DNA from: Bacteroidales bacterium
GTDB lineage: Bacteria > Bacteroidota > Bacteroidia > Bacteroidales > UBA932
Reading direction: 5' to 3'
Length of the DNA: 64,000 nucleotides
NCBI GenBank assembly: GCA_017617035.1
Contig: JAFZWV010000032.1
Span: 1 to 64,000, forward strand
Positions 6,484 through 32,142 of the stretch are shown piece by piece. Every line of letters starts with the position of its first letter. Position 1 is the first letter of the stretch. The position numbers and the translations under genes were made by a program. The notes under the pieces were generated by a model that made no database searches, had not been told where the DNA came from, and saw nothing but the letters and a program-made list of their open reading frames with translations.

Positions 6484-6571
6484 AGAACCCCCTAAAGCCC
6501 GCTATCGCCTGGAGACGCTTCGCGTCAAACGGCGACCCTGGTCCGGGAAAATGCGGTCTTTAGGGGGTTCT
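6484..6571. repeat. Family A structured palindromic element, copy 1
   Basis: Perfect 14-base arms (AGAACCCCCTAAAG at 6484-6497, complement at 6558-6571) enclose a core shared with copies at 10414 and 32041. The core is TATCGCCTGG, an inner hairpin GACGC-TTC-GCGTC, then GGCGACCC and GGTCCGGGAAAATG. CGCC/GGCG forms a second helix. It sits between convergent genes and has no U-tract after it. Confidence 0.85.
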
Positions 6572-6599
6572 ATGTTGCCGAAACGACTGCGTGTTGGGG

Positions 6600-6773
6600 T
6601 TATTCACCAGGGGTGATAGCTCCGGTCGGGCATGCGTCTGCGCAAGTTCCGCAGTCGATGCAGATAGCGGGATCGATGCTGTAGACATCTCCCTCTTTGA
6701 TTGCACCGGTAGGGCACTCGCTCTGGCAGGTTCCGCAAGCGACACAAGTGTCGGCAGAGATTTTGTAAGCCAT
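6600..6773 (-). CDS. Small 2[4Fe-4S] ferredoxin
   Basis: 57 residues (MAYKISADTCVACGTCQSEC onward). Two CxxCxxCxxxCP motifs (Cys 10/13/16/20 and 38/41/44/48) bind two [4Fe-4S] clusters, the pattern of clostridial-type ferredoxins. It is a cytoplasmic electron carrier, plausibly a partner of the pyruvate:ferredoxin oxidoreductase at the left edge of the window. The gene is transcribed alone from a TACATTTG box at 6803-6810, divergently from the DUF1573 gene. Confidence 0.95.
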   Translation of the reverse strand: MAYKISADTCVACGTCQSECPTGAIKEGDVYSIDPAICIDCGTCADACPTGAITPGE

Positions 6774-6802
6774 AATGTTTGTTGTTTAGAATTTCGCTGG
6801 TG

Positions 6803-6810
6803 CAAATGTA
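6803..6810 (-). promoter_or_regulatory. -7 box of the ferredoxin gene
   Basis: TACATTTG on the minus strand (TAnnTTTG), 30 bases before the ATG at 6773. Confidence 0.6.
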
Positions 6811-6822
6811 ACAATTTGTGGT

Positions 6823-6830
6823 TAACTTTG
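6823..6830 (+). promoter_or_regulatory. -7 box of the DUF1573 gene
   Basis: TAACTTTG (TAnnTTTG) ends 5 bases before the ATG at 6836, so the message is predicted to be leaderless or nearly so. It is divergent from the ferredoxin box. Confidence 0.55.
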
Positions 6831-6835
6831 CAATT

Positions 6836-7927
6836 ATGTCAAAGGCATTGTTAAAAGCTTTTATGGTGTTCGTTGCCGGGGCCTGTCTTTCGGCAGGAGC
6901 CTTCGCTCAGAGCAAGTTCGCGGGAATCGTTTCCCTCGATAAGACCGTCCACGACTGGGGTGATGTTACAGTTAAGGACGGCCCGCTGAGCTGCACCTTC
7001 ACCGTGACCAATATATCTGACGAGCCGGTCCAGATCCGCACTGTCGCAAGTTCTTGCGGCTGTACGGGCGTTACTTGGACTATGGGCGCCATCCAGCCCG
7101 GCGAGGCCGGAACCGTCCAGGCTACGTACTCTAACGACGAGGGACCGTATGCCTTCGATAAGACCCTGACCGTCTCGTTCGTGGGCGTGCGCAAGCCGCT
7201 GGTGCTTCATCTGCGCGGGGTCGTGCACCCGAAAAAGCTGCCCCTGAAGGAGACTTATACCGTCCAGTTCGGGCAGCTCGGTTTCCGTGAGTCCGAAATC
7301 AAGATAGGCAACCTCAGCCAGGGCGAGCAAAAAAGCGCAGAGGTCCGGGTGGCCAACGTCGGGAAGAAGGAGATCACGGTCAGCTTCGACTGCGTCTCCC
7401 CTTTCCTTTCGTTTACACCGTCAGAGCTTACGATAGCCGGCAATTCGACCGCTATTCTGGGCGTGACGATTACGGCCGACCGCAGCCTCTGGGGCAACAA
7501 CGTCTATTATGCAACCCCGGTGGTTAACGGGGTCAGGCAAGAGAGCCGAATCGCCTTCACGGCCGCCACACGCGAGAATTTCGATTCGTGGACCGAGATG
7601 CAGCGCATGGCCGCCCCTTCCGCCGACTATGACGGCTCGTTCGCGGCAGACCCGGTCGAGGCCGGAACTCCGATTAAGGCTAAGTTCAAGATTGCCAATA
7701 CGGGCCGCTCTCCTCTGCAGATTTACAAGATTGATTACAATCGCGACAATATCACGCCAGGCTTGGTTCCGCTCAGCATCAAACCCGGCTCCAAGGCCTT
7801 TTTCGAGTTCGAGTTGGATACTGCCGGCATGAAACCCGACAGCGAGAATCTTGGGATAATCACTCTTTATACGAATGATCCCCATCATAGCCTGATTCAT
7901 CTTTATATTGACGTGATTATTTTGTAA
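6836..7927 (+). CDS. DUF1573 domain protein, exported
   Basis: 363 residues from ATG 6836. The alternative GTG at 6818 lies before the -7 box and is rejected. The signal peptide is MSKALLKAFMVFVAGACLSAGAFAQ. Residues ~35-130 are a DUF1573 immunoglobulin-like domain with the usual FTVTNISDEPVQI and SSCGCTGVTW motifs. Two further beta-sandwich segments follow, the second carrying FKIANTGRSPLQI. DUF1573 proteins are common exported proteins of Bacteroidota with no settled function; the motifs resemble PapD/MSP-type beta sandwiches. parE follows after 24 bases. Confidence 0.85.
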   Translation: MSKALLKAFMVFVAGACLSAGAFAQSKFAGIVSLDKTVHDWGDVTVKDGPLSCTFTVTNISDEPVQIRTVASSCGCTGVTWTMGAIQPGEAGTVQATYSNDEGPYAFDKTLTVSFVGVRKPLVLHLRGVVHPKKLPLKETYTVQFGQLGFRESEIKIGNLSQGEQKSAEVRVANVGKKEITVSFDCVSPFLSFTPSELTIAGNSTAILGVTITADRSLWGNNVYYATPVVNGVRQESRIAFTAATRENFDSWTEMQRMAAPSADYDGSFAADPVEAGTPIKAKFKIANTGRSPLQIYKIDYNRDNITPGLVPLSIKPGSKAFFEFELDTAGMKPDSENLGIITLYTNDPHHSLIHLYIDVIIL

Positions 7928-7951
7928 CTTAGCGCCGCAAAATCTCTAAAG

Positions 7952-9844
7952 ATGGCAGAAGAGCAGATTAAATACACAGACGAAAACATCCGAACTCTCG
8001 AAGGTGTTACCCACATCCGAATGAGGCCCGGTATGTATATCGGCCGCCTTGGAGACGGTCGCAGCCAGGACGACGGTATCTACGTGATGCTCAAGGAAAT
8101 CATCGACAACTCTATCGACGAGTTCTCGATGGGCTTCGGAAAGCAGATTACCATCGACATCACCGAAGACGGCCACGTCTCAGTGCGCGACTTCGGCCGC
8201 GGAATTCCGCTAGGCTCTGTCGTAAAAGCGATGAGCGTTCTGAATACCGGCGGTAAGTTCGACGACAAGGCCTTCAAGAAGTCAGTGGGTCTGAACGGCG
8301 TCGGTTCGAAGGCCGTTAACGCCCTTTCGTCTGAATTCCGCGTCTGCTCCTACCGCGACGGCCTGAGCCACTGGGCCAGGTTCGTCAAAGGCCAGCTCGC
8401 CGAGGAGGCTGAGGAGCCCACTAAAGAGAAGAACGGAACTTTGATTTCCTTCTATCCCGACTCAGAAATGTTCGGAAACTTCGCCTTCAACATGGACTAT
8501 GTTGAGACGATGATAAAGAACTACTCCTACCTCAAGAAAGGCCTTACACTGATCCTGAACGGCGTTTCTTATCGTTCGGAGAACGGTCTTCTCGACCTTG
8601 TCAACGATAACCTCAGCGAGGAACCGCTCTACCCTCCGATTCACCTCGAAGGCGATGATATCGAAATCGTTCTGAGCCATGGCAACGCCTACGGTGAGAA
8701 TATCAGTTCATTTGTCAACGGTCAGAACACCCGCGACGGCGGTACACATCTGGCTGCTTATCGCGAGGCTATCGCAAAGACTCTGAAGGAGTTCTTTGGA
8801 AAGAACTATGAGCCGGCGGACTGCCGCCAGGGCGTAGTGGGAGCCATTAGCATCCAGATTCAAGAGCCCAAGTTCGAGAGCCAGACTAAGATTAAGCTCG
8901 GTTCAACATATCTCTGGGAGAAAAACGGCGATGTTGGCCCTACGATCAGATCCTTTGTGAACGACTTCGTCTCCAAGGCTCTGGACGACTATCTTCGCAT
9001 CCATAAGGAGATTGTCCCCATCATCGAGGAGAAGATCAAGTCCAACAAGCAGGAGCGCGAAGAGATCGCCGGAATTCAGAAGAAGACCCGCGAGAAGAAC
9101 AAGAAAGCGAACGTCTACAATAAGAAGCTCCGCGACTGCCGTTATCATTATAACGACAAGATTACGGAGAGGACTCCGCAGGAGATTCAGGATTATATCG
9201 ACGCTTCATCTATCTTCATCACCGAGGGTGATTCCGCATCCGGAACCATCACCAAGGCCCGTAACGCTAATTGCCAGGCCGTGTTCTCCCTGAGGGGCAA
9301 GCCTATCAACTGCTACAAGGAAAGCCGCAAGAAGGTCGCTGAGAATGAGGAATTGAATCTTTTGATTTCCGCACTCGGCGTAGAGGACGACCTCGAGAAC
9401 CTGCGCTACAACCGCATTGTAGTAGCGACCGATGCCGATGACGACGGTATGCATATCCGCATGCTGGTCCTGACCTTCTTCATGAAGTATTATCCGGACC
9501 TTATCCGCCGCGGCCATGTCCATATCCTCCAGACTCCCCTCTTCAGGGTCCGCAACAAGAAGGACAACATCTACTGCTACGACCAGGTCGAGAAGGAGAA
9601 GGCTATCGCAAAGCTCAAGACGGGCGTTGAAATCACCCGTTTCAAAGGCCTTGGAGAAATCTCATCCGACGAATTCGCCGATTTCATCGGTGAAGGAATG
9701 AGGCTCGATCACGTAAAGCTCGCCGACGAGGAGTCTATCTCCGAGATCATGGAGTTCTACATGGGCGACAATACCATCGAGCGACAGAATTTCGTTCGCG
9801 CGAACCTTCGTTCCGAGGAAGAACTCGAGGACGTCGATATTTAA
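7952..9844 (+). CDS. parE: DNA topoisomerase IV subunit B
   Basis: 630 residues: the ATPase subunit that, with ParC, decatenates chromosomes. The N-terminal GHKL ATPase has EIIDNSIDEF (Mg/ATP-binding Asn) and GRGIP. The transducer domain lies at ~220-370. The TOPRIM domain has TEGDSASG and ATDADDDGMHIR (metal-binding Asp residues). The opening (YTDENIRTLEGVTHIRMRPGMYIG, GDGRSQDDGIY) is of the Bacteroidota ParE type rather than GyrB. No parC lies next to it. Its stop overlaps the ATG of the next gene by one base. Confidence 0.9.
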   Translation: MAEEQIKYTDENIRTLEGVTHIRMRPGMYIGRLGDGRSQDDGIYVMLKEIIDNSIDEFSMGFGKQITIDITEDGHVSVRDFGRGIPLGSVVKAMSVLNTGGKFDDKAFKKSVGLNGVGSKAVNALSSEFRVCSYRDGLSHWARFVKGQLAEEAEEPTKEKNGTLISFYPDSEMFGNFAFNMDYVETMIKNYSYLKKGLTLILNGVSYRSENGLLDLVNDNLSEEPLYPPIHLEGDDIEIVLSHGNAYGENISSFVNGQNTRDGGTHLAAYREAIAKTLKEFFGKNYEPADCRQGVVGAISIQIQEPKFESQTKIKLGSTYLWEKNGDVGPTIRSFVNDFVSKALDDYLRIHKEIVPIIEEKIKSNKQEREEIAGIQKKTREKNKKANVYNKKLRDCRYHYNDKITERTPQEIQDYIDASSIFITEGDSASGTITKARNANCQAVFSLRGKPINCYKESRKKVAENEELNLLISALGVEDDLENLRYNRIVVATDADDDGMHIRMLVLTFFMKYYPDLIRRGHVHILQTPLFRVRNKKDNIYCYDQVEKEKAIAKLKTGVEITRFKGLGEISSDEFADFIGEGMRLDHVKLADEESISEIMEFYMGDNTIERQNFVRANLRSEEELEDVDI

Positions 9845-10413
9845 TGAACCAGAAGTTCCACAAATTCGTCTTCAACAAGATACTCGGTTGGCGCGGTGCC
9901 GAGGGTGAAGGGCTTATCCCGGAGGATAAAGCCATTATCCTTGCAGCGCCCCATACCAGCATCTACGATTTCGTGATCGGATTCTTCTACTACCGCTCGA
10001 TGGGCGGCAGACTGAAAATCATGATCAAGAAAGAGGCGTTCTTCTGGCCCCTCGGCCCCATCCTCAGGCATCTCGGGGCTTTCCCCATGGACCGCAGTAA
10101 TCCCCAGGCGATGATGATGAGCATAATCCACGAAATGGAGAAACCGGATACCAAATGCATGCTCACCATCTGTCCTGAGGGCACCCGCAAGGCTGTCCAT
10201 AAATGGAAAATGGGATACCATAAAATCGGCCGCGAGTGCAATCTCCACGTCTATCTGGCCCACTTAGACTACAAGACCCGCGTCATCGGTTCCGGTTCCA
10301 ACAACCCCATCACCCTTACCGACGACGCCCGCGCCGACACCGACCGCATCCAGCAGATGTACGAAGATATGCATCTGACAGCTCTGCATCCTGACGGGTA
10401 TACGACTAAATAA
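9844..10413 (+). CDS. 1-acyl-glycerol-3-phosphate acyltransferase family protein
   Basis: 189 residues. HTSIYD is the HX4D catalytic block I, MDRSN is near block II and CPEGTR is block III, so all parts of the PlsC fold core are present. There is no long C-terminal extension and no obvious membrane helix beyond a short N-terminal patch. It acts on membrane lipid acylation, probably associated with the inner membrane. It is translationally coupled to parE by a one-base overlap. A family A repeat starts directly after its stop codon. The exact acceptor is unknown. Confidence 0.82.
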   Translation: MNQKFHKFVFNKILGWRGAEGEGLIPEDKAIILAAPHTSIYDFVIGFFYYRSMGGRLKIMIKKEAFFWPLGPILRHLGAFPMDRSNPQAMMMSIIHEMEKPDTKCMLTICPEGTRKAVHKWKMGYHKIGRECNLHVYLAHLDYKTRVIGSGSNNPITLTDDARADTDRIQQMYEDMHLTALHPDGYTTK

Positions 10414-10519
10414 GCGTCAAAGCATTGCCCCCATAGCCGCTATCGCTTGACGACGCTGCGCGCGTCTTGAAGCGACCCTAGTCCGGGCAAATGCGGCTAT
10501 AGGAGCAATGCCTTGACGC
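10414..10519. repeat. Family A structured palindromic element, copy 2
   Basis: The left arm begins at the base after the acyltransferase stop. The arms GCGTCAAAGCATTGC (10414-10428) and GCAATGCCTTGACGC (10505-10519) pair with one mismatch, and ATAGCCGC pairs with GCGGCTAT further in. The core is homologous to copies 1 and 3. Its helices carry compensatory changes (CGCTT/AAGCG in place of CGCC/GGCG) and the inner hairpin is GACGC/GCGTC with a different loop. The end GCGACCCTAGTCCGGG is unchanged. Confidence 0.85.
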
Positions 10520-10525
10520 AAATTA

Positions 10526-10556
10526 TTTGTTAAATCAAAAATAATGTCTATATTTG
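10526..10556 (+). promoter_or_regulatory. Promoter of the rpsF-rpsR-rplI operon
   Basis: TTTG at 10526-10529, 19 bases, then TATATTTG at 10549-10556: a full match to the Bacteroidota primary-sigma consensus. The leader contains a short CCCC/GGGG hairpin (about 10560-10573). The CCG bulge typical of S6:S18-binding leaders elsewhere is not seen. Confidence 0.85.
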
Positions 10557-10599
10557 CGTCCCCTTTTGAGGGGATGTATAATAATTAACGTATAATAAA

Positions 10600-11022
10600 A
10601 TGATCAAACAGTACGAAACCGTTTTCATTGCAACTCCCGTTTTGTCTGACGCCCAGATGAAGGAAGCGGTTGCCAAGTACACTGACCTCATCAAGAACAA
10701 TGGGGGCGAAATCGTGTACGAAGAGGATTGGGGACTCAAGCAGCTTGCTTACCCTATCCAGCACAAGACATCAGGATTCTATTACCTGATCGAATTCAAG
10801 GCTACACCCGAATTTGTAGCTCTTCTCGAGACCCAGTATCACCGCGACGAGCGCATCATCCGCTACCTCACCGTAGCTCTTGACAAGGACGCTATCGCTT
10901 ACGCTGAGCACCGTCGTCAGGTCCGCGCCGCCAAGGCAAACGCTCCTCAGGTTGAGGAGGCACCCAAGGCCGAAGAGATCGCAGAAGTAGAAGTTGAACC
11001 CGAAATTGCAGAGGAGGCATAA
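10600..11022 (+). CDS. rpsF: 30S ribosomal protein S6
   Basis: 140 residues. The first ~95 are the S6 ferredoxin-like fold ([40 protein letters not shown]). The last ~40 form an acidic tail ([21 protein letters not shown]), a common lineage-specific extension. S6 binds 16S rRNA with S18, encoded immediately downstream. It is the first gene of a three-gene operon with a strong promoter. Confidence 0.98.
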
Positions 11023-11024
11023 TC

Positions 11025-11300
11025 ATGGCAGCTAATGTAGAAAACAGCGGTATCCGCTATCTTAATCCTCCGACCGTAGAGGTTCGCAAGAAGAAGTATT
11101 GCCGCTTCAAGAAAGCAGGCATCAAGTATGTTGATTACAAGGACGCAGAGTTCCTCAAGAAGTTCCTCAACGAGCAGGGTAAGATTCTCCCTCGCCGTAT
11201 CACCGGTACTTCGCTTAAGTTCCAGAGGAAGGTCGCTCAGGCTATCAAGCGTGCGCGCGCCATCGCCCTGCTCCCTTATGTTACTGACCTTCTTAAATAA
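11025..11300 (+). CDS. rpsR: 30S ribosomal protein S18
   Basis: 91 residues, basic, with the S18 signature: [16 protein letters not shown] near the N-terminus, [20 protein letters not shown] in the middle and [12 protein letters not shown] at the end. It starts two bases after rpsF and lies 8 bases before rplI. It is a platform protein of the small subunit. Confidence 0.98.
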
Positions 11301-11308
11301 TTGAGAGT

Positions 11309-11749
11309 ATGAAGATTATCCTTAAGAAAGAAGTCGCAGGTCTCGGTGAGGCGCTCGACGTAGTAGAAGTAAAGGCTGGTTACGCTCTCAATTACCTCGT
11401 ACCCCAGGGCTACGCTATCGTAGGTACCCCTTCCGCTCTCAAGCAGAACGAGGAGACTATCCGTCAGAGGGCACACAAAGAGGCTAAGCTTGTCGCTGAC
11501 GCCCAGGCTCTCGCAGCAAAGGCCGAGGCAGTCGAGCTCAAGATCGCTGCCAAGGTTGGCGAAGGCGGAAAGCTCTACGGTGGAATCACCGCAGCTCAGG
11601 TCGCCGAGGCTCTTGCCAAGGCTGGCATCGAGGTCGAGAAGCGCAATATCGACGTTCCTGAGATCAAGGCTCTTGGCCAGTATGAGGCTAAGGCTAAGTT
11701 CTACAAGGGCGTTTTCGCCACCCTCAAGATCGAGGTTGTCGAAGAGTAA
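11309..11749 (+). CDS. rplI: 50S ribosomal protein L9
   Basis: 146 residues. The N-terminal domain MKIILKKEVAGLGEALDVVEVKAGYALNYL with VPQGYA is the L9 signature for 23S rRNA binding. A long charged helix (EETIRQRAHKEAKLVADAQA) leads to the C-terminal domain. It is the last gene of the ribosomal operon, and a bidirectional terminator follows after 18 bases. Confidence 0.98.
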   Translation: MKIILKKEVAGLGEALDVVEVKAGYALNYLVPQGYAIVGTPSALKQNEETIRQRAHKEAKLVADAQALAAKAEAVELKIAAKVGEGGKLYGGITAAQVAEALAKAGIEVEKRNIDVPEIKALGQYEAKAKFYKGVFATLKIEVVEE

Positions 11750-11767
11750 TTCTAACCTACTCACAAT

Positions 11768-11800
11768 AAAAGAGGCTGGCCCGAAAGGTCAGCCTCTTTT
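11768..11800. terminator. Bidirectional terminator between rplI and the 2-epimerase
   Basis: AAAAGAGGCTGGCC and GGTCAGCCTCTTTT form a hairpin with an A-tract on one side and a T-tract on the other. It can therefore stop transcripts from both strands. Its right half includes the stop codon and last codons of the convergent 2-epimerase gene. Confidence 0.85.
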
Positions 11801-13024
11801 CATTATCTCCATGCACATGCGGCCGTTGTGGTATGGACATTTCCAGAAGCCAGCGCGGTCGTCGTCGAGATTGACGCTGCCATCGGCCCGGCGGCCCCAG
11901 TACCATTCTCCGTCGGGGGCGATTATCGCGCGTTTGATGTAGTCCCACTCGGCAAGGCAGCGCTCAAGATCGTCCGGGGCTCCGGCGAGCTGGTAGCGAT
12001 TCAGATAACCCACTACCGCTTCGGCCTGGACCCACCAGTCGCGGTCTTCCTTACGGTAGCCCGTCGAGGGGTCGTATTCGTAGATCATGCCATCTGGCGT
12101 GAGGCCTTCTGTCGCGGCGGCGGCCAGGTCGCGGCTGGCTCCGAGGCATTCCATGTACAGGAGCCTGTCGCCCAAGTCGCCGCTTTCGCTGAGGACCTCG
12201 GCGGCCTCGACTAGCAGCCATGAGGTTTCGATGTCATGGCCGAAGGACTGCATCTCGCCATGGAGCTTCCAGTCTTCGTCGAAAAAGAGGCCCAGGTGGC
12301 CGTCGGGCTGGATGATCTTGTCGAGGAACAGCTGGATGAGGCCGCGCAGGCGGTCATGGAGCCCCGCATCCTTCCACACCCGGTAGAGCCCTGTATAGGC
12401 CTCGAGTATGTGGAGGTGCGTGTTCATGGTCTTGGCGTAGTTCTCGTCCTTTTCGGAGAGGCGCATGTCTTCGATGGCGCCCCACTCGCGCGTGGACGCT
12501 TCTATATAACCCCCGCGCGCGGAGTCGTAGCTATGGTCTTCGATGCTTTTGTATAACGAGATGGCCAGAGACAAACTGTCATCTCGAGCGTAGTCGAGAG
12601 ATCTCTCCGCGCGCTTCGCTTGGTCGAGATGACAAATAGCGCGGTAGTACTCCGCGAGCCCGTAGACCGCGAAGGCGATGGCGTAGAACTGTTTTTTGGT
12701 GTCCAGCGGACTTCCGTCTGCGTTCAGGCTCCAATAGGCTCCGCCATGGTCATGGTCTATGAAATGCTCCGCGATGTACTGCTTCGCCCTGGTAGCCGCT
12801 TCCAGGTACTCCGGCCGGCCCAGCATCCCGTAGGCCTGCGAGAAAGTCCAGAGAATGCGCGCGTTCAGGATCAGGCCCTTGGGGGCATCTGCATCCAGTT
12901 TGCCGCTGCCGTCGATGCGACCGTAGAAACCGCCGCGAGGGTCCTGCATATGGTTTATCCAGAACGGGAGGATGTCCGAAGTCAGTTCATTGGTTACGTC
13001 GTGGACCAGTTTATCGATATTCAT
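11789..13024 (-). CDS. Cellobiose/mannobiose 2-epimerase (AGE family)
   Basis: 411 residues, no signal peptide, so cytoplasmic. GGFYGRIDGSGKLDADAPKG and LNARILWTFSQAY match cellobiose 2-epimerases, which invert C2 of the reducing-end sugar. Beside GH130 and mannanases the likely reaction is mannobiose to 4-O-mannosyl-glucose (inference). The C-terminal EYDPSTGYRKEDRDWWVQAE is part of the alpha/alpha-barrel active site. Between EYYRA and SLSLAISLYKSIEDH the protein carries about 20 extra residues (HLDQAKRAERSLDYARDD) encoded by a palindromic repeat (12577-12634). The gene is divergent from the AraC regulator. Alternative: an N-acylglucosamine 2-epimerase, less likely from motifs and context. 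Confidence 0.88.
   Translation of the reverse strand: MNIDKLVHDVTNELTSDILPFWINHMQDPRGGFYGRIDGSGKLDADAPKGLILNARILWTFSQAYGMLGRPEYLEAATRAKQYIAEHFIDHDHGGAYWSLNADGSPLDTKKQFYAIAFAVYGLAEYYRAICHLDQAKRAERSLDYARDDSLSLAISLYKSIEDHSYDSARGGYIEASTREWGAIEDMRLSEKDENYAKTMNTHLHILEAYTGLYRVWKDAGLHDRLRGLIQLFLDKIIQPDGHLGLFFDEDWKLHGEMQSFGHDIETSWLLVEAAEVLSESGDLGDRLLYMECLGASRDLAAAATEGLTPDGMIYEYDPSTGYRKEDRDWWVQAEAVVGYLNRYQLAGAPDDLERCLAEWDYIKRAIIAPDGEWYWGRRADGSVNLDDDRAGFWKCPYHNGRMCMEIMKRG
12577..12634. repeat. Family C palindromic element inside the 2-epimerase gene
   Basis: TGTCATCTCGA (12577-12587) and TCGAGATGACA (12624-12634) are inverted ends of a 58-bp element lying within codons of the epimerase. In the coding direction it begins TGTCATCTCGACCAAGC, identical over 17 bases to the element in tldD (45281-45297). 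It keeps the reading frame open and adds a loop of about 20 residues. Confidence 0.8.
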
Positions 13025-13051
13025 GATTTCCTTTCAAATCCTAATCAAACA

Positions 13052-13059
13052 CAAATATA
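13052..13059 (-). promoter_or_regulatory. -7 box of the 2-epimerase gene
   Basis: TATATTTG on the minus strand (TAnnTTTG), 28 bases before the ATG at 13024. No TTTG -33 box is evident, which would fit a promoter needing an activator (inference). Confidence 0.6.
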
Positions 13060-13089
13060 TAATAATTAATCGTTACTCTCCCCATGCTC

Positions 13090-13134
13090 TTTTTGGACTA
13101 CTCCCCCTAAAAGAGGGGGGAGAAGTCCAAAAAT
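13090..13134. repeat. Family B REP-like hairpin, copy a
   Basis: TTTTTGGACTACTCCCC and GGGGAGAAGTCCAAAAA form a long hairpin between the divergent epimerase and AraC promoters. The asymmetric loop (CTAAAAGAGG) puts it in the same orientation as copy d. One arm has a base change (CTACTCC for CTTCTCC). Confidence 0.85.
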
Positions 13135-13175
13135 ATTTTTTAGGTTAAAAAAGTATCATATTTTCGAATATTTTG

Positions 13176-13183
13176 TATATTTG
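13176..13183 (+). promoter_or_regulatory. -7 box of the AraC regulator gene
   Basis: TATATTTG (TAnnTTTG), 23 bases before the ATG at 13207. Confidence 0.65.
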
Positions 13184-13206
13184 CCACTGTATAACACAGT
13201 AGCTAA

Positions 13207-14085
13207 ATGGCTGAAATTCTAGAAGAAATAACCCATCTGACCCCTAAGGACTGCTACTTCATTGTAGAGCGTCACAAAAGGACCTTCGATTACCCGATCC
13301 ACCAGCACGCCGAGTGCGAGCTCAACTTTGTTGAGAACGGAAAAGGCGTGAAGAGAATAGTCGGCAGTAGCGTAGAGGAAATAGGCGAATACGATCTTGC
13401 GCTGATAAACTCCCCCTCCCTTCCGCATATGTGGGACCAGAACGACGCGCCTCCCAGGCAAATCAGGGAAATCACCATCCACTTTTCTCCCGATCTGCTC
13501 GGCGACAGCCTGATGTCGCGCAACCAGTTCGCATCCATCAAAGAGATGCTGGATAGAGCCAAACACGGTCTTGCCTTCCCCACTTCAGCTATCATGAAAG
13601 TGTACAGTCTTCTGGATGTCCTGGCCAACGAAAAAAACTCGTTCAACCAGTTTCTGGGCTTCGTCCAGATTCTTTACGAACTGTCACGAAGCAAATATCG
13701 CGAACTTGACGTAACCGCTGGAAGCGAACAGTCAAGTCCAGCCGCAGAAGACCCCAGGATAGCTTCCGTCAAGGATTACGTGGCATCCAGGTACAACGAA
13801 GACATAACCCTGGAACAGCTCGCAGACATAGCCGGAATGACGCCAACCGCCTTCAGCCGCTTCTTTAAACTTCATACCGGACGCACTGTCAGCAACTACA
13901 TTATCGAGACCCGTTTAGGCGCGGCGTCCCGTGCGCTGGTCGACACTTCCCAGAGCATCTCGGAGATCTGCTACAACTGCGGATTCAACAATCTGTCGAA
14001 CTTCAACCGTACATTCAAATCGAAACGGGGCGTAACACCTCGCGACTTCCGGATGAACTACAAGAAGAAAAAAGTGTTGGTCTAA
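13207..14085 (+). CDS. AraC-family regulator of the mannan locus
   Basis: 292 residues. Residues ~15-180 form a cupin-like sensor domain (HAECELNFVENGKGVKRIVG, PHMWDQND). Residues ~190-288 are the double helix-turn-helix of AraC proteins (ITLEQLADIAGMTPTAFSRF and ISEICYNCGFNNLSNFNRTF). Many Sus-type loci use hybrid two-component or SusR sensors, but AraC activators also occur. The gene stands directly upstream of susC and divergent from the epimerase, so it is the obvious regulator of both. A 9-base direct repeat upstream of susC (14099-14122) is a candidate site. The sugar it senses is not known. Confidence 0.88.
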   Translation: MAEILEEITHLTPKDCYFIVERHKRTFDYPIHQHAECELNFVENGKGVKRIVGSSVEEIGEYDLALINSPSLPHMWDQNDAPPRQIREITIHFSPDLLGDSLMSRNQFASIKEMLDRAKHGLAFPTSAIMKVYSLLDVLANEKNSFNQFLGFVQILYELSRSKYRELDVTAGSEQSSPAAEDPRIASVKDYVASRYNEDITLEQLADIAGMTPTAFSRFFKLHTGRTVSNYIIETRLGAASRALVDTSQSISEICYNCGFNNLSNFNRTFKSKRGVTPRDFRMNYKKKKVLV

Positions 14086-14098
14086 ACAAAAAATTTGC

Positions 14099-14122
14099 AG
14101 TATTTGTCAATTTAGTATTTGT
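14099..14122 (+). promoter_or_regulatory. Direct repeat overlapping the susC -33 box, candidate AraC site
   Basis: AGTATTTGT occurs at 14099-14107 and again at 14114-14122, a 15-base period. The second copy contains the -33 TTTG. Direct half-sites upstream of, and touching, the -33/-35 element are the usual arrangement for AraC activators. The assignment is inference. Confidence 0.45.
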
Positions 14123-14149
14123 TTACCCTTATATATAAAGGTACTTTTG
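14118..14149 (+). promoter_or_regulatory. Promoter of the mannan-locus susC operon
   Basis: TTTG (14118-14121), 20 bases, then TACTTTTG (14142-14149) matches the Bacteroidota consensus. It leaves a leader of roughly 95 bases before the susC ATG at 14250, in which I see no clear riboswitch or structure. Confidence 0.8.
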
Positions 14150-14249
14150 CATATAAAATGCGGAAGTACTTTTTTTAAGCACCCAGGCAGACCACAAACA
14201 CAAACAATTTTTATACTAACCAAATTTTATTAACCAAAAATCAGGTACA

Positions 14250-17492: not shown

Positions 17493-17510
17493 TCAAGGGA
17501 GGATACGAAT

Positions 17511-22956: not shown

Positions 22957-22963
22957 TCCTTTG

Positions 22964-22991
22964 CCGGAAGGGACCTGACCGTCCCTTCCGG
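22964..22991 (+). promoter_or_regulatory. Intra-operon hairpin between binding-protein and enzyme genes
   Basis: CCGGAAGGGAC and GTCCCTTCCGG form a perfect 11-bp stem with a 6-base loop in the 45-base gap. No U-tract follows, so full termination is not predicted. It could be a processing or RNA-stability boundary that keeps enzyme mRNA lower than susCD mRNA, or a partial terminator (inference). Confidence 0.6.
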
Positions 22992-23001
22992 TCCCAATAA
23001 C

Positions 23002-24399: not shown

Positions 24400-24408
24400 T
24401 GAATTAGA

Positions 24409-25935
24409 ATGCGAACTATCTATCATTGGATTCTCGTTGCAGGAGTACTGATCTCCACTATCTGTTGCTGCGGCAAGAACAACGGCAACGACAACGATAT
24501 TGATACCCCGACCTCTCCGGGCTCAATTACCCTATCTGCCAACACCATCGAAGCGGCAGCTGCAGGCGGATCCTATGAACTCACCATCAAAGCTCCGGCA
24601 CGTCCCAAATTCGAGCTTCCTACCTGGATTACCAAGAAGGACGGCACTTTTAAGGATTATAAAATCACCTTTACGCTGGTGGTAGCGGCCAATGACAAAG
24701 ACGAAGCGCGCGAAGCTGATATCACCGTCAGCGCTACGGGCGCAAACGATGTCACCCTCAAGGTAACTCAACCGGCCAAGGAAGTAATCAAGGACCCGGT
24801 ACTGCCCAATAACAATGCAGTGGCGCGCAATATGGAACTGGGGCTCGGCTGGAATATGGGCAACCATTTCGACGCTTACTCTAACGGCGTTGCCAGCGAA
24901 ACGGCCTGGGGCGGCAAGCCCGCAACCGAGGCAACTTTTGCCGGAGTCAAGGCGGCCGGCTTTACCAGTGTCCGCATCCCCGTTACCTGGCTGGGCCATA
25001 TAGGTGATGCTCCCGACTACAAACTCGACGAAACATGGCTCAACCGTGTCTACGAAGTGGTCGGATATGCCGAGAAAGCAGGCCTGTTTGTAATCATCAA
25101 CACCCACCACGACGAAGACCATGGCGAAGGCCATTGGCAGAATCTCGCGGGAGCAGTTAACAGTGAAGATACAAACACCCAGATTAAACAGGAGATTGCT
25201 GCGGTCTGGACTCAGATTGCGAACAAATTCAAGGACAAAGGCGATTTCCTGATGCTCGAATCTTTCAACGAACTTATCTACGGAACAGAATGGCAGACAT
25301 ATTCAAATACCCAGAAGAAGTGCGCTATTATCAATGAGTGGAATCAGGTATTTGTCGACGCCGTACGTGCTACTGGAGGCAACAACTCCACCAGATGGCT
25401 TGGCGTTCCCGGATACGCCGCCAGTGCTCTATATCTTGAGTATCTGACCGTGCCCAACGATCCGGCTAATAAGACCATGCTCGCCTTCCACTGCTACGAC
25501 CCTTACGACTACACTATCGGAGAGAAACAACTTCCCGACTGGGGCCATACAGGAAAGTCCTTCCCGAAGGGAGAGGAGCAGATCCAGACTTTGTTCAACA
25601 GCATTTACACCAACTACATCGCCAAGGACATCCCTATCTATATGGGCGAGTTCGGCTGCTCATTCAGATCGAAGAGCGACGCCAAGGCATGGGCCAGTTT
25701 CCTGTATTTTCTGGAATACTTTGTCAAATGTGCCCGGGTGTACGGCATATCCAGTTTCCTCTGGGACAATGGCAACAAAGGTGCCGGCCAGGAACACCAT
25801 GCATACATCGACCATGCAACAGGCCAGTATATAGACTATTCCGAGGAAGCCGTATCTGCAATGATGCGCGCATGGAACTCCACCGATCCCAATTATACCC
25901 TTCAGAGCGTATACGATTCCGCACCCGCACTGTAA
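24409..25935 (+). CDS. GH5 (subfamily 4-like) endo-beta-glucanase/glucomannanase lipoprotein with BACON domain
   Basis: 508 residues. The signal ends STICCCGKNNGNDNDIDT. BACON domain at ~35-130 (AAAAGGSYELTIKAPARP). Catalytic domain at ~140-500, with NMELGLGWNMGNHFDAYSNG and SETAWGGKPAT, then VRIPVTWLGHIGDAPDY, closely resembling the Bacteroides ovatus surface xyloglucanase BoGH5A (recalled). ESFNELIYG holds the acid/base and YMGEFGCSF the nucleophile. GH5_4 enzymes cut beta-1,4-glucan backbones of xyloglucan, mixed-linkage glucan or glucomannan; here glucomannan fits best (inference). Starts 9 bases after the GH26 gene. Confidence 0.9.
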   Translation: MRTIYHWILVAGVLISTICCCGKNNGNDNDIDTPTSPGSITLSANTIEAAAAGGSYELTIKAPARPKFELPTWITKKDGTFKDYKITFTLVVAANDKDEAREADITVSATGANDVTLKVTQPAKEVIKDPVLPNNNAVARNMELGLGWNMGNHFDAYSNGVASETAWGGKPATEATFAGVKAAGFTSVRIPVTWLGHIGDAPDYKLDETWLNRVYEVVGYAEKAGLFVIINTHHDEDHGEGHWQNLAGAVNSEDTNTQIKQEIAAVWTQIANKFKDKGDFLMLESFNELIYGTEWQTYSNTQKKCAIINEWNQVFVDAVRATGGNNSTRWLGVPGYAASALYLEYLTVPNDPANKTMLAFHCYDPYDYTIGEKQLPDWGHTGKSFPKGEEQIQTLFNSIYTNYIAKDIPIYMGEFGCSFRSKSDAKAWASFLYFLEYFVKCARVYGISSFLWDNGNKGAGQEHHAYIDHATGQYIDYSEEAVSAMMRAWNSTDPNYTLQSVYDSAPAL

Positions 25936-27423
25936 ATGAAACTTCGCGAAGTCATATGTCTTGCCGCGCTGCTGGCTGTCGCCTGCACGCCTGAGACTCC
26001 GGACCCCACCCCGGATCCGGTGCCTGAGAATATGACTTTGAGCGCATCTACACTTGAGGCATCACAAAGCGGAGAGACACTATACCTTACAGTGACTTCC
26101 CCGGCGCGCCCCAAGGTGGGCGGAGTCCCCGACTGGATCAAATTCACAGACGGAACCTTCAACCATTACAAGATTACCTTCTCCTTCCAGGTGAGCGCAA
26201 ACAACACTCATGAAACCCGCGAGGCGAAACTCAGAATAACTGCGAATGGCCTGGAGGATCAAATCTTTACCATAAGCCAACCCGGTATTCCCGACTCCCC
26301 CTCTCCTGAAGACGGTTGGGAGAGCGCCTCATCCGCCGTGAGGAACATGGGCGCAGGTTGGAATCTGGGAAACACCCTCGATTCCAATAGTGGCGATATC
26401 GACAATATGTGGATAGAGGCCTACAGCCAGCGCAGGACATCGGATTACGAAACCGCATGGGGCCAACCAGTGACTACGCGCGCGTTGATCCATATGTTCA
26501 AGGATGCCGGATTTGGCGCCATTCGCGTGCCAGTTACATGGTACCCCCATATCGGGACGGTTACCGTCAATGGGAAGCATTGGGACATGTCGACCTGGAC
26601 CGGCAATGACGTCGATCCTGCATGGATGGCCCGCGTAAAAGAGGTAGTTGACTACGTCATAGACGAAGGGCTGTACTGCATACTGAATGTCCACCACGAC
26701 ACCGGAGCAGCCCCCACAGCCTGGCTGGTTGCAAGCGACGCGGATTTCGAGGCAGCCAAGGACCGTTATGAATCACTTTGGCAGCAGATTGCCAACACCT
26801 TCAAGGATTACGGTGAACACCTACTGTTCGAATCATACAACGAGATGCTTGATCCCCTTGACTCATGGTGCTTCGCATCCTTTGCCGCTCCCGGCAGCTA
26901 TGACGCAGATGTCGCCAGGTCTGCATATTCGGGTATCAACCGTTACGCTGAGCTCTTTACGACCACGGTTCGAGCCACGGGAGGCAACAACGCAAAGCGC
27001 AACCTTATAGTCAACACCTATGGAGCCTGCAGCGGCGACGGGACCTGGAACTCCCACCTCATAGATCCCATAAAAGCGATAGAGATACCCGAAGAACCAG
27101 GTCACATCGCCGTCCAAATCCACAGTTACTGGGACGCAGAGAAATTTGACACGCAAAAGTCAGACATAGACCGACTGTTCTCGAATATTGGAGAGCATCT
27201 CATCGGCCGCCTTGGCGTTCCTGTAATCATAGGAGAATGGGGAGGAGGCACGGGCGAAGACAGCGAGAACAACGTACGCTTCGCAACCTACTTTTCCCAA
27301 AAGGCAAAAGAATCCAGCGTAGCCGCTTTCTGGTGGATGGGCCTCTCTGACGGAGCCGACCGCAGTGCACTGGCCTGGACCATGCCCCTGACCAAAGACG
27401 GAATACTCAAAGCTTACAAGTAA
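25936..27423 (+). CDS. GH5 endo-beta-glycanase lipoprotein with BACON domain
   Basis: 495 residues; starts directly at the base after the previous stop. Lipoprotein signal ends AVACTPETPDPTPDPVPE, with a Pro/Asp linker. BACON domain at ~30-115. GH5 catalytic domain at ~125-495: GAGWNLGNTLDSNSGDID, YETAWGQPVTT, AIRVPVTWYPHIG, LFESYNEMLDPLD (acid/base Glu), VIIGEWGGGTG (nucleophile Glu). The family is broad in substrate (cellulose, glucomannan, mannan). A different GH5 from its neighbour, not a simple duplicate; overlap of BACON domains suggests both are displayed outside the cell. Confidence 0.9.
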   Translation: MKLREVICLAALLAVACTPETPDPTPDPVPENMTLSASTLEASQSGETLYLTVTSPARPKVGGVPDWIKFTDGTFNHYKITFSFQVSANNTHETREAKLRITANGLEDQIFTISQPGIPDSPSPEDGWESASSAVRNMGAGWNLGNTLDSNSGDIDNMWIEAYSQRRTSDYETAWGQPVTTRALIHMFKDAGFGAIRVPVTWYPHIGTVTVNGKHWDMSTWTGNDVDPAWMARVKEVVDYVIDEGLYCILNVHHDTGAAPTAWLVASDADFEAAKDRYESLWQQIANTFKDYGEHLLFESYNEMLDPLDSWCFASFAAPGSYDADVARSAYSGINRYAELFTTTVRATGGNNAKRNLIVNTYGACSGDGTWNSHLIDPIKAIEIPEEPGHIAVQIHSYWDAEKFDTQKSDIDRLFSNIGEHLIGRLGVPVIIGEWGGGTGEDSENNVRFATYFSQKAKESSVAAFWWMGLSDGADRSALAWTMPLTKDGILKAYK

Positions 27424-27424
27424 T

Positions 27425-28522
27425 ATGAAGAAACTAACCATACTCGCAGCATTGCTTATGAGCGTAGCCTGCACACATCCGACCGATCAAGTCCTCGCGA
27501 CCCTGAAGAAAGCAGTCGCAGAAGGCAAGGTCCTTTACGGCCACCAGGACGACCTGCTTTACGGCCACACATGGAACGCGACACTAGAAGACGATCATAC
27601 AATGGAGCGCTCCGACGTCAAGTTCGTCACCGGTGACTACCCTGCTATCCTAGGCCTTGAACTCGGAGACTTCGAACTCGGAGCTCAGAGAAACCTCGAC
27701 GGCAACGATATCGACCTTACCCGCGAAGCGGCCGTGAAACACTATCTGCGCGGGGGTATAGTTACAATAAGCTGGCATCCCAACAATCCGGTTACAGGCG
27801 GTGATGCATGGGATCTTACCGGCGGAGACGTAGTCGCAAAATTGCTTCCTGGAGGAGATCTCCACGACATGTGGATGGAGCGCATGGGCCGCATCGGCGA
27901 CTTCCTCGAGAGCATAAAAACCCCGGACGGAAAACCTATACCTATCATCTGGCGCCCCTGGCACGAACACACCGGAAGCTGGTTCTGGTGGGGCTGGGAT
28001 TTCTGCAGCGCCCAGGAATTCAACGACTTCTGGGTCATGACCTATGACTATATGGTACGCGAGCGCGGCCTTAAGAACCTTCTCTGGGCCATCTCCCCCA
28101 ACGGAGTCGACTTCTTCGAGGACTGGCCCCAGCGCTATCCCGGCGACAAGTATGTCGACATAGTCGGTCTGGACATGTACTGCCCAACATGGATGCCCCA
28201 GGAGACCGCCCTGCCCTACTATATGGAGAATATGCCCCTGCTGCTCGCTTCTCTCGAGCAGTTCGCCAAGGAGCACGGCAAGATACTGGCCCTGACGGAG
28301 ACCGGCTACGAAGGCCTGACCTGGCCTACGTGGTGGACCGAGGTGCTCGCGCCCTCGATCAAGGGCTTCCCCATCGCATACCTTCTTACATGGCGCAACA
28401 CCAGCGAGCCCGACCGCAGGGACGTCCACTTCTACGCTCCCTTCCCCGGCGGTCCCACCGAGCAGGACTTCTGCAAATGGATTAACGAAAACAACATCCT
28501 TCTTCTGAACGGAATAAAATGA
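27425..28522 (+). CDS. GH26 beta-mannanase, probably periplasmic
   Basis: 365 residues, no BACON domain. Signal [22 protein letters not shown] ends in a lipoprotein cysteine, but no acidic cluster follows, which favours the periplasmic face over surface export. The GH26 barrel starts at once: [44 protein letters not shown] (acid/base Glu) and [10 protein letters not shown] (nucleophile Glu). It resembles the BoMan26A type that trims imported oligosaccharides to mannobiose, the substrate of the 2-epimerase. Its stop overlaps the GH130 start (ATGA). Confidence 0.92.
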
Positions 28523-29673
28523 ACTGGAAACTGAAACTAAACCTTCTTCGCAAAGAACACGAAGAACTGCTGTCGAAAAAGAACCACACCGTCTATGTGA
28601 ACGGCGTGTATGAAAGATATGAGAATCCTGTTCTCACTGCCGCCCATGCCCCGCTGGAGTGGCGCTACGACCTCAATCCCGAGACGAACCCCTTCCTGAT
28701 GGAGCGCATCGGCATCCACGCCGCATTCAATAGCGGAGCGATCAAGTGGGGCGACAAATATGTATTGGTAGTCCGCGTAGAGGCCGACGACCGCAAGTCC
28801 TTCTTCGCGGTAGCCGAGAGCCCCAACGGAATCGACAACTTCCGCTTCTGGCCCCGCCCGATAACCATGCCCGAGTACGGAGAGCCAGCGACCAATGTCT
28901 ACGACATGCGCCTGACGCGCCATGAAGACGGCTGGATCTACGGCCTGTTCTGCGTGGAGCGCAAGGACCATGATCTCGAGGGCGACCTCTCAGCCGCTAC
29001 GGCCGCGTGCGGGATCGCGCGTACCCATGACCTCGTGAACTGGGAGCGCCTGCCCGACCTGAAGTCCCGCTCGCAGCAGCGCAACGTCTGCCTGCACCCG
29101 GAGTTCGTCGACGGCAAGTACGCCCTCTACACCCGCCCGCAGGACGGTTTCATCGATGCAGGTAGCGGCGGCGGAATCGGCTGGGCGCTGGTAGACGACA
29201 TCACCAACGCCGAGGTCCGCGAGGAGAAGATAATCAGCGCGCGCAAGTACCACACCGTCTACGAAGTCAAGAACGGCGAGGGCCCGGCTCCGATCAAGAC
29301 GGCGAAGGGTTGGCTCCACCTTGCCCATGGCGTACGCGGCTGCGCGAGCGGCCTTCGCTACGTGCTGTATATGTACATGACCGCCCTGGACGACCCTTCG
29401 AAACTGATCGCTCAGCCTTCTGGCTTTTTCATCGCCCCCGAGGGCGACGAACTCGTAGGCGACGTAATGAACGTCGCATTCTCCAGCGGCTGGATAGAGG
29501 ATCCCGACGGGAAGGTGTTCATCTACTACGCCTCGTCCGATACCCGTATGCATGTAGCCACCTCGACTGTAGACAGGCTGGTGGACTACTGCCTCCATAC
29601 CGAGCCCGACGGTGGCCGCACCGGCCTGACGGTCGAGCGAATCAACAGACTGATTGACAAGAATAATAAATAA
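28519..29673 (+). CDS. GH130 4-O-beta-mannosyl-glucose phosphorylase
   Basis: 384 residues with no signal peptide: cytoplasmic. It converts mannosyl-beta-1,4-glucose and phosphate to mannose-1-phosphate and glucose. Seen: [59 protein letters not shown] (catalytic Asp in the YDMRL stretch), [20 protein letters not shown] and [20 protein letters not shown], all typical of GH130 subfamily 1. The 2-epimerase at 11789-13024 makes its substrate from mannobiose. Translationally coupled to the GH26 gene by a 4-base overlap. Confidence 0.95.
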
Positions 29674-29681
29674 GCATAACT

Positions 29682-31025
29682 ATGGCCAAACTCTCAGAGA
29701 AAATTGGATACGCTCTTGGCGATGCCGCTGCCGGCGGTATAACCTGGAAGGTGATGTCCATCGCTTTTCCCTTCTTCTTTACTAACGTCTTCGGTCTTAC
29801 GGTAGCCGACGCTGCCGCTCTGATGCTGGTAGCCCGTTTGTTCGACGTAATCACTGACCCCATGATGGGCGCCATCGCAGACCGCACCCAGTCGCGCTGG
29901 GGCACCTATCGTCCATGGCTCATCTTCGGAGCCATTCCGCTGGGCCTGGTGTTCGCCATGCTGCTCTACACCCCGGATTTCGGGCCTGCCGGCAAGCGCG
30001 TCTACGCTTATACGCTCTATCTGCTGATGATGGTGGTGTACACCGCCGTCAACGTGCCTTACGGGTCGCTGCTGGGCGTGATGACCGACGATGACAACGA
30101 GAAGAACCAGTTCTCATCGTTCCGTATGGTAGGCGCCTATGCCATGGGCTTTATCATGCTCTTCTCCTTCCCCTATCTTCAGAGGTTGGTAGGCGGCGAG
30201 CCCAAGCATCAGTACGCAGTCCTGGGCGTTATTCTCGGAGCTGTTGCGGCCCTTGGAACCCTTGCCTGCGGCCTGCTTACCAGAGAGAGGCTGAAGCCCA
30301 TACGCGCGGAGAAATTCTCGTTCAAGCCTTTTGCCGACCTGTTCCGCAATAAGCCATGGATTTACCTGACGCTCATCGGAATCTGCACCAACTTCTTCAA
30401 TGGCTTCCGCTACGCTGTAGCCGCTTACCTGATGGAGTACTGCCTGCATGGCGATGTGACCGTCATGGGCCTGGTGATCAACTATACCGTGTTCATGATG
30501 TTCGGTGAGGCCACCTGCATGGTTTTCGGAGGCTTGTGTCCCTGGTTCACCAAGAAGGTCGGTTCGAAGAAGAAGGCCTTTGCCTGGGCAGCCATTATCT
30601 GCGCCGTTTCCTCGATCCTTTTCTTCTTCATTCCCATGAACCCGGCTTGGATTTGGGTAATGGTGGCCAATGTAATTATCACCTCCATCGGCATCGGCTT
30701 CTATTCCCCGCTGCTTTGGTCGATGTATGCCGATGTGGCCGACTATGCCACCGAAAAGAACGGCACGTCCTCGACCGGCCTGATTTTCTCGTCCGGGACC
30801 ATGGCCCAGAAGTTCGGCTCCGCCATTTCGGGCGCGCTGGTCGCCATGCTCCTTGGCCTTGCAGGCTTCATCTCCAACACTGACCCTGCCACCGGCGATA
30901 CCGTTGTGACTATCCTCAACGAGGGCTCGGTCCAGACTATGATATGGTCGCTGTTCTCGCTCTTCCCGGCCGCGATTGCGCTGCTTATACTGCTGCTCCT
31001 TAAGCTCTACCCTATTCAGAAATGA
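29682..31025 (+). CDS. GPH-family sugar:cation symporter
   Basis: 447 residues with about 12 membrane segments in the inner membrane. The opening LSEKIGYALGDAAAGGITWK and the motif RLFDVITDPMMGAIADRTQS, then RWGTYRPWL, are signatures of the glycoside-pentoside-hexuronide (MelB-like) family. It sits between GH130 and GH5 genes and most likely brings mannobiose and cellobiose from the periplasm to the cytoplasmic epimerase and phosphorylases. Its stop overlaps the next start by 4 bases. Confidence 0.92.
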   Translation: MAKLSEKIGYALGDAAAGGITWKVMSIAFPFFFTNVFGLTVADAAALMLVARLFDVITDPMMGAIADRTQSRWGTYRPWLIFGAIPLGLVFAMLLYTPDFGPAGKRVYAYTLYLLMMVVYTAVNVPYGSLLGVMTDDDNEKNQFSSFRMVGAYAMGFIMLFSFPYLQRLVGGEPKHQYAVLGVILGAVAALGTLACGLLTRERLKPIRAEKFSFKPFADLFRNKPWIYLTLIGICTNFFNGFRYAVAAYLMEYCLHGDVTVMGLVINYTVFMMFGEATCMVFGGLCPWFTKKVGSKKKAFAWAAIICAVSSILFFFIPMNPAWIWVMVANVIITSIGIGFYSPLLWSMYADVADYATEKNGTSSTGLIFSSGTMAQKFGSAISGALVAMLLGLAGFISNTDPATGDTVVTILNEGSVQTMIWSLFSLFPAAIALLILLLLKLYPIQK

Positions 31026-32041
31026 GAAAGTTATTGTTTGCATTGATGGTAGTTATGGGCGTTGGCTGCTGCAAGACTCCGGCGGTCGCACCGCTTAAGG
31101 TAGAGGGTACTCAGCTCACGGCCGACGGCAAACCCGTCGCCTTCCATGGCATCAGTTTCGGCTGGCACAACATCTGGCCGCGCTTCTACAATAAAGCGGC
31201 TGTAAAGCAACTGCATGAAGATACGGGATGTATGATTTTCCGAGCCGCGATTGGCTCCGACGACCATGCCCTGGCCGACAATCCCGGTATTCCTTCCGGA
31301 TATATTGGAGCCCCCGAATTCGCCCTTGAGAAGCTTTACGCAGTAGTCGACGGAGCGATTAAGAATGGCTGCTATGTGATAGTAGACTGGCATTCGCATA
31401 CGCTCCATTTAGATGCAGCCAAGGAATTCTTTACCGCCGTCGCAACTCGTTACAAGGGTGTCCCTAATGTGATTTACGAGTTGTTCAACGAGCCTGTGTG
31501 CTTCTCTTTCGAAGAGTGGCGTGAGAATCCTTACGAGGATCTGGGCGACCCTGACGCTATGATGGCTTACTGGCTTGAGTTAAAATCATATGCTACCGAG
31601 TTGATTAAAGTCATCACGGAGATCGACCCCTCCGAGCCGCTCATCCTCATGGGCTGCCCGAGTTGGGACCAGAGAGTCGACCTGCCTGCCGCATCTCCCA
31701 TCGAGGGATACTCTAATTTGATGTACACAATGCACTTCTACGCCGCGACCCATAAGCATCTTCGCGATGCGTGCGACCTGGCTCTTGCAGCCGGCATCCC
31801 GATTTTCGTGAGCGAATGCGCTGCATGTGAGGCCAGCGGCGACGGTCCCATGGACCTCGAAGAGTGGCAGAAATACAGCGACTGGGCAGACGCTAATGGC
31901 ATCACCATGATGGCCTGGAGCATCTCCGACAAGGTCGAGACCTGCTCGATGTTCACCAAGGAGGCTTCATCTGAAGGGCCATGGAGCGATGAAGTGATTA
32001 AACCGTGGGGACAACTAGTTAAAAAATGGATTAAGGAATAA
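31022..32041 (+). CDS. GH5 (subfamily 2-like) endo-beta-1,4-glucanase, probably periplasmic
   Basis: 339 residues. Signal ends MGVGCCKTPAVAPLK, a lipoprotein cysteine without following acidic residues, so periplasm-facing is likely. GH5 features: VAFHGISFGWHNIWPRFYN, VIVDWHSH, VIYELFNEPV (acid/base Glu), MYTMHFYAATHKHLRD and IFVSECAA (nucleophile Glu). The pattern matches bacterial cellulases of subfamily 2. With GH94 next door it would supply cellobiose from glucomannan oligomers. The stop codon's last base is also the first base of a family A repeat. Confidence 0.88.
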   Translation: MRKLLFALMVVMGVGCCKTPAVAPLKVEGTQLTADGKPVAFHGISFGWHNIWPRFYNKAAVKQLHEDTGCMIFRAAIGSDDHALADNPGIPSGYIGAPEFALEKLYAVVDGAIKNGCYVIVDWHSHTLHLDAAKEFFTAVATRYKGVPNVIYELFNEPVCFSFEEWRENPYEDLGDPDAMMAYWLELKSYATELIKVITEIDPSEPLILMGCPSWDQRVDLPAASPIEGYSNLMYTMHFYAATHKHLRDACDLALAAGIPIFVSECAACEASGDGPMDLEEWQKYSDWADANGITMMAWSISDKVETCSMFTKEASSEGPWSDEVIKPWGQLVKKWIKE

Positions 32042-32142
32042 TAATCAGGCATCTGTACCTGGGCCCTATCGCCTGGAAACGCTTCGCGTCAAACGGCGAC
32101 CCTAGTCCGGGAAAATGGGCCCCGCTACAGATGCCTGATTAT
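32041..32142. repeat. Family A structured palindromic element, copy 3
   Basis: Perfect 17-base arms (ATAATCAGGCATCTGTA at 32041-32057, complement at 32126-32142) plus inner GGGCCC/GGGCCC enclose the shared core: TATCGCCTGG, ACGC-TTC-GCGT, CGGCGACCCTAGTCCGGG, AAAATG. It fills the gap between the GH5 and GH94 genes inside the operon and starts on the last base of the GH5 stop codon. Its arms share no sequence with those of copies 1 and 2. Confidence 0.85.

Follow-up and report, generated by a model that had tools for sequence, protein, structure and literature searches.

A family of palindromic elements with concertedly changing arms and inverted cores in uncultured Bacteroidales

The window analyzed here is a stretch of 64,000 nt from the genome of a Bacteroidales bacterium (assembly GCA_017617035.1, contig JAFZWV010000032.1), in which an initial annotation had noticed three copies of a structured repeat, termed family A, with a conserved core and self-complementary arms. 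All three copies were located in the window, and family A was compared to its orthologous copies in a close relative and to copies in other genomes of the genus. By this approach, the two arms of an element were found to change in concert, the core was found to be inverted at orthologous sites, and copies were found to reside in frame within protein-coding genes. Taken together, these results suggest that family A is probably a selfish palindromic DNA element of the type of the Rickettsia palindromic elements (RPE), with arms that are complementary through DNA mechanics, rather than through RNA selection or target duplication, and with a loop that inverts. Within this reading, our confidence is higher for the concerted arms and the inversion and lower for template switching as the agent.

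Concerted arms and inverted cores at orthologous sites

A covariance model (R1) was built from 28 copies of the window genome (G000; 1.64 Mb, 33 contigs, 80% complete) and used to search the close relative RGIG10170 (G224), a metagenome-assembled genome (MAG) that is incomplete and has flanks 79-88% identical to those of the window genome. R1 detected 24 matches in G224 at E≤0.1. Of these, 14 were orthologous with copies of the window genome, and the other 10 had no clear partner among the loci compared. The arms of the 14 pairs were compared over 22 arm positions, which provided 303 usable cells after 3 gap cells were dropped. Changes were found at 48 positions of the left arm and 52 of the right, and both sides were changed in 39 of the 303 cells, compared to a mean of 8.3 and a maximum of 17 in 5000 permutations. 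In both species, 29 of the 39 double changes were Watson-Crick pairs. The arms differed at 16.5% of positions, about the same rate as the flanks, yet the two arms changed together.

The core was reversed relative to the flanks in 7 of the 14 orthologous pairs, with orientation and orthology assigned manually from the alignments. By manual reading, 8 of the 10 remaining double changes were what inversion of a mispaired cell along with the core would produce, and all of these were in inverted pairs; such joint inversion speaks against separate insertions. Nine of 19 ortholog groups of congeners had the core in both orientations. In the gene for methionine--tRNA ligase (MetG), loci L162 and L166 had the same site and arms as L173, with the core turned and the frame kept. 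Similarly, in the gene for dihydropteroate synthase (FolP), L163 and L169 shared site and arms, with the core turned in frame and paired changes in the arms.

In one orthologous pair with an inverted core (L018 of the window genome and L409 of G224), one copy had the inner hairpin and the other had only a short CGCTTCGCG form, and thus gain or loss of the inner hairpin can occur. A search of the incomplete G224 assembly did not recover the region of window copies 1 and 2; of 17 short matches, 16 were to the elements themselves.

Family A in frame within protein-coding genes of congeners

The typical element of congeners was a compact form of 75 nt that was mostly coding and occurred in either orientation. 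Both orientations stayed open, with the peptide ASLRDPVRANAP encoded one way and GAFARTGSRSDA the other way, each with small variants. Twenty-two congener loci were read initially (L055 and L057 were left out), and a frame survey was performed on 87 core hits in 80 congener loci. In 71 of the 87 core hits (47 with the core orientation and 24 against it), the element was traversed by an open frame of 400 nt or more. These calls come from a heuristic in which frame length and third-position G+C determined the coding strand, such that single calls may be wrong, and a few short-frame calls in G019 and G116 probably are. All copies were in frame in G018 (13 of 13) and G170 (15 of 15). One locus, L038, dropped out before the counts were made.

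Ten host proteins were scanned, and nine matched known families while one had no match. The families were RsmH, cysteine--tRNA ligase (CysS), ATP synthase gamma (AtpG), MetG, FolP, an MFS transporter, a SpoU-type methylase, UvrA and alpha-2-macroglobulin. The insert coincided with a gap in alignments to solved RsmH and cysteine--tRNA ligase, and uninterrupted RsmH was found in several congeners. The loops of MetG, FolP, RsmH and the MFS transporter that carry family A in some species were seen by eye to hold different hairpin-like inserts elsewhere, which indicates that the loops tolerate inserts. In-frame translation of further hairpin-like repeats was noted at L243-L245 and L251 (MetG loop), L274 (MFS loop) and L282-L286 (FolP loop). 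In L275 and L276 (G203 and G207), the MFS-transporter loop held a larger and different palindromic insert, whose arms were the same in the two species but whose middle was inverted; on the basis of this case, loop inversion may be general to palindromes of the genus.

Distribution among genomes

R1 had matches in 7 of 36 congeners and in none of 24 genomes of other families, and thus further copies were present in related genomes. Of 200 genomes that were scanned in the genus, 36 matched a pattern for the compact form, and the reversed control was at zero throughout; the window genome was among the 200 and had no match to this pattern. An exact pattern for both forms was matched by none of 147 genomes sampled from other genera of the order and by no viral contig. 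A scan of named species genomes detected at least 80 loci. Among the matches listed, 78 of 80 were titled uncultured Bacteroidales or Bacteroidia, and many were from rumen and other ruminant gut samples. The two loci with other titles (L303, Clostridia, and L359, Acaryochloris) lacked complementary arms on inspection by eye and were regarded as chance matches. Judged from these matches, the element is apparently restricted to one genus of uncultured Bacteroidales.

Copies in the window and the window genome

When up to 3 mismatches were allowed, a 22-base pattern of the core had 52 matches in the window genome, compared to none for the reversed control, and 51 distinct copies or part-copies were read with their flanks. 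With R1, the number of matches was 46 at E≤0.001 and rose to 50 at E≤1. In all, the window genome holds about 50 copies, the three of the window among them.

Each of the three window copies (Table 1) was found to be a long hairpin, with a few mismatches in its arms and a core of about 50 nt. Arms of 14-17 nt had been claimed; these were read here as 19, 27 and 26 nt in copies 1, 2 and 3, respectively. The core consisted of TATCGC, a small hairpin, GCGACCCTAGTCCGGG and NAAATG, with CCCTGGTCC in place of GCGACCCTAGTCCGGG in copy 1. Two copies had been described as beginning at a stop codon, and this was true of copy 2, in which the 5' arm starts at the base after the stop codon of the open reading frame (ORF) at 9844-10413, and of copy 3, in which it begins inside the stop codon of ORF 31022-32041. 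By contrast, the start of copy 1 is 24 nt past the stop of the preceding ORF. A ferredoxin-like frame was seen by eye on the minus strand of the window at 6600-6740, ending near 6600, and thus copy 1 is probably between convergent genes, though it was scored as tandem by script.

Copies 1, 2 and 3 folded far better than dinucleotide shuffles (z of -5.1, -8.2 and -8.5, respectively). The inner helices proposed for the core were in the minimum-energy fold of copy 2 only. A search of the whole window against Rfam at gathering score detected a tRNA only, in agreement with the earlier remark that the element was not recognized as a known Rfam family, and a permissive search with copy 3 alone returned implausible sub-threshold matches only. 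The best of these, a trypanosome snoRNA (26.9 of 77 bits, E 0.00032), was dismissed.

Table 1. Copies of family A and the Y1 transposase ORF of the window.
Feature	Position	Strand	5' arm	Core	3' arm	Remarks
Copy 1	6484-6571	+	6484-6502	6503-6552	6553-6571	R1 match 6481-6577, E 1.8e-20
Copy 2	10414-10519	+	10414-10440	10441-10492	10493-10519	R1 match 10419-10517, E 6.6e-18
Copy 3	32041-32142	+	32041-32066	32067-32116	32117-32142	R1 match 32045-32141, E 2.0e-20
Y1 (RAYT-type) transposase ORF	37602-38510	-				Within 37556-38598 of the window; second palindrome TTTGGACTTCTCCCC on both flanks

Discussion

We infer that, at replication, the arms of family A may pair or swap strands, either by template switching at the hairpin or by RecA-independent exchange between inverted repeats. 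A mutation in one arm would then be copied into the other arm, or be overwritten from it, and the same event would sometimes leave the loop inverted. By such a mechanism, complementarity would be kept by DNA mechanics and identity would be kept for the core alone. A wider proposal is offered more tentatively: bacterial chromosomes may harbor self-maintaining selfish hairpins with a loop that is kept by sequence, arms that are rewritten one from the other, and a loop that is turned by the same event. Each flip within a gene would swap ASLRDPVRANAP and GAFARTGSRSDA and leave the gene intact, and could in effect represent phase variation of loops in MetG, FolP, AtpG, CysS and others.

Several observations weigh against a self-maintained selfish element. 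The arms were not perfectly homogenized, as one-sided changes were found in 22 of the 303 cells. No inversion event was watched, and the 14 pairs rest on manual assignment. Copies were rare or absent in most congeners, and most copies of G116 and G019 were outside genes. No mobilizer was found by comparison of Y1_Tnp in 17 carriers and 12 non-carriers. Finally, the placement at 3' ends and the distal T-runs described below are what an RNA terminator would show.

Family A resembles the RPEs in how it works; the two are likened by description, and kinship is not claimed. RPEs are described in parts of PMC10969869 as palindromic repeats in frame within unrelated protein genes, and family A is similarly in frame inside unrelated genes of congeners. 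By contrast to RPEs, the copies of the window genome are mainly between genes, the host lineage is different, and the element is 75 nt compared to about 150 bp. RPEs are also said, in a passage of PMC6649704, to lose repeat identity over time, whereas the arms of family A stay complementary (29 compensated versus 22 one-sided changes) and the loop inverts. The same source describes, for nematomorph mitochondria, coding palindromes whose arms are actively maintained, and proposes repeat conversion or template switching as the means. Inverted repeats within genes and maintained arms are common to both systems; however, the nematomorph arms encode conserved host protein and form no dispersed family with a shared core, while family A is an added insert in a bacterial chromosome. 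Template switching in RNA genes is described in portions of PMC8794818 as a source of compensatory changes and loop inversion from one event, and the hypothesis is put forward there that compensatory change accompanied by an inverted loop would give the strongest support possible, although this combination was extremely rare in those data. The loops in that work are short and inversions rare, whereas family A has inversion in half of the orthologous pairs and a core of up to about 50 nt.

In-frame palindromes were not found to be reported for Bacteroidales in a search of the open-access literature. Protein-coding palindromes have been described for Rickettsia, and family A would widen their range to Bacteroidales and essential genes. 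It would also offer dozens of orthologous loci for measuring template switching in populations and a natural test case for the self-maintenance of DNA hairpins.

It is unlikely that family A is instead a functional structured RNA (a 3'-end, stability or terminator domain), with stems kept by selection for RNA pairing and copies that serve as conserved regulatory parts. Covariation was strong, as this explanation would have it. The arms were paired at 90.4% across the 28 copies of R1, changes on both sides were present in 21 of 22 arm pairs, and when the partners were shifted by one column, pairing across the structure as a whole fell from 91.6% to 42%. The covariation noted earlier in the core helices was real but partial: the inner helix had U-A in 14 copies, C-G in 10 and other combinations in 4 at columns 29/51, and C-G in 6, U-A in 5, other combinations in 14 and a gap in 3 at columns 30/50. 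Placement at gene 3' ends was likewise real in the window genome. Based on mechanical ORF calls, and with duplicates L023 and L088 removed by hand, 18 of 34 distinct copies were between tandem genes, 8 were convergent, 2 were divergent, 5 overlapped an ORF call and 1 was undetermined. Distal T-runs of at least 4 were found in 13 of 45 right arms, compared to 1 of 45 for A-runs at the same place as a control. Use as a terminator is plausible in the window genome, as a tolerated or secondary side effect, but does not explain the family.

Other results are at odds with RNA selection. An inverted core, as found in 7 of 14 orthologs, gives a wholly different core RNA. Selection for RNA pairing would tolerate G.U over A.C; however, 21 G.U and 32 A.C were counted on the mRNA strand among 1651 cells (1390 Watson-Crick) of coding copies, those with arms that scored below 20 being omitted as weak, and this lack of a G.U excess argues against such selection. 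Ten of the 29 compensated changes were transversions (compared to 6 of the 22 one-sided changes), and a transversion cannot pass through a single G.U step. In addition, the divergence of the arms was about that of the flanks, many congener copies were within reading frames, and the inner helices were absent from the minimum-energy folds of copies 1 and 3. Thus, of the suggestion that family A is a structured RNA domain placed in 3' ends, the structure and the placement stood, and the RNA domain itself was weakened by the inversions, the G.U counts and the in-frame copies. A compensatory change in a stem is usually taken as proof of RNA function. Given its strong covariation, its loop inversion in place and its lack of RNA-type constraint, family A indicates that covariation alone can mislead.

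The genome has Y1 (RAYT-type) transposases, enzymes that act on hairpins; it is quite improbable that these move family A as an element like the repetitive extragenic palindromes (REPs). Y1_Tnp was present in 16 of the 17 carriers, and the window holds one Y1 gene; however, Y1_Tnp was also present in 8 of the 12 genomes without the compact pattern and thus did not separate the carriers. Furthermore, the family A core was beside none of the five Y1 loci that were read of the six in the window genome. REPs are given in parts of PMC3733652 as 20-40 bp and tagged GTAG or CGTC. Family A is similar to REPs in that it is a high-copy palindrome in a genome that also has Y1 transposases flanked by palindromes, but differs in its conserved loop and variable arms. 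The CGTC of the compact core was seen by eye to adjoin the loop and not the outer end. The outer arms vary between copies, and thus family A has no conserved terminal inverted repeats such as those of a miniature inverted-repeat transposable element (MITE) of an insertion sequence; the initial annotation was correct to set it apart from REPs and MITEs with conserved ends.

The TTTGGACTTCTCCCC palindromes that flank the Y1 ORF of the window have perfect arms of 17 and 15 nt and form a REP-like pair, and near-copies of this palindrome were seen by eye beside some family A copies. At L464 (G000:C9), a different palindrome pair, TACATCTCCCTA (497-550 and 1589-1638), flanks another Y1 ORF. A possible composite element of G224 (G224:C22, two copies about 1.3 kb apart) was also inspected, and no transposase was recognized by eye in the frames there.

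It is very unlikely that the core is turned by a site-specific invertase, with exchange of the arms as the result. Inversion is frequent in family A and invertible regions are well known in Bacteroidales, but no site is conserved in the arms from copy to copy, and arm positions that are mispaired close to the core turn together with it, so the exchange points are in variable sequence.

There is similarly little to be said for the proposal that each insertion makes the arms by inverted duplication of its target, or that the core enters existing hairpins. The arms of most copies differ greatly, as such an origin would have it, but their earlier description as unrelated between copies was too strong. 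The left arms had a mean pairwise identity of 8.8 of 24, compared to 6.4 (sd 0.07) for shuffled arms, one subgroup (looked at by eye only) has the arm GCAGAACAAACTGCACCCC in common at different places, and all arms share a weak consensus, in which preferences by position extend as far as the A-rich and T-rich ends. Conserved arms, which had been named as evidence against the initial description, were therefore found in part, and the subgroup and the consensus make the arms look inherited and not derived from the target. As a separate observation, 3' halves were repeated at some places, for example as three units 78 nt apart on contig C32, and tandem repeats of the 3' half and 3' arm were behind a full copy at L035 (200-480), L013 (50-260) and L022 (1434-1640, reverse).

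Flanks of five copies present only in G224 were searched in the window genome. Those of L403 were contiguous at G000:C14, a site that is without about 138 nt, both arms included, and at which no target-site duplication was seen; this is a weak test, as it is one site and a deletion in the window genome would look alike. Insertion into an existing hairpin and inverted duplication were thus not supported, with the direct test resting on one empty site that has neither arm. The flanks of L411 had no match in the window genome. For L412, L424 and L407, the two flanks were separated in the window genome, in two of the three cases on one contig but on opposite strands, and these copies may mark points of rearrangement.

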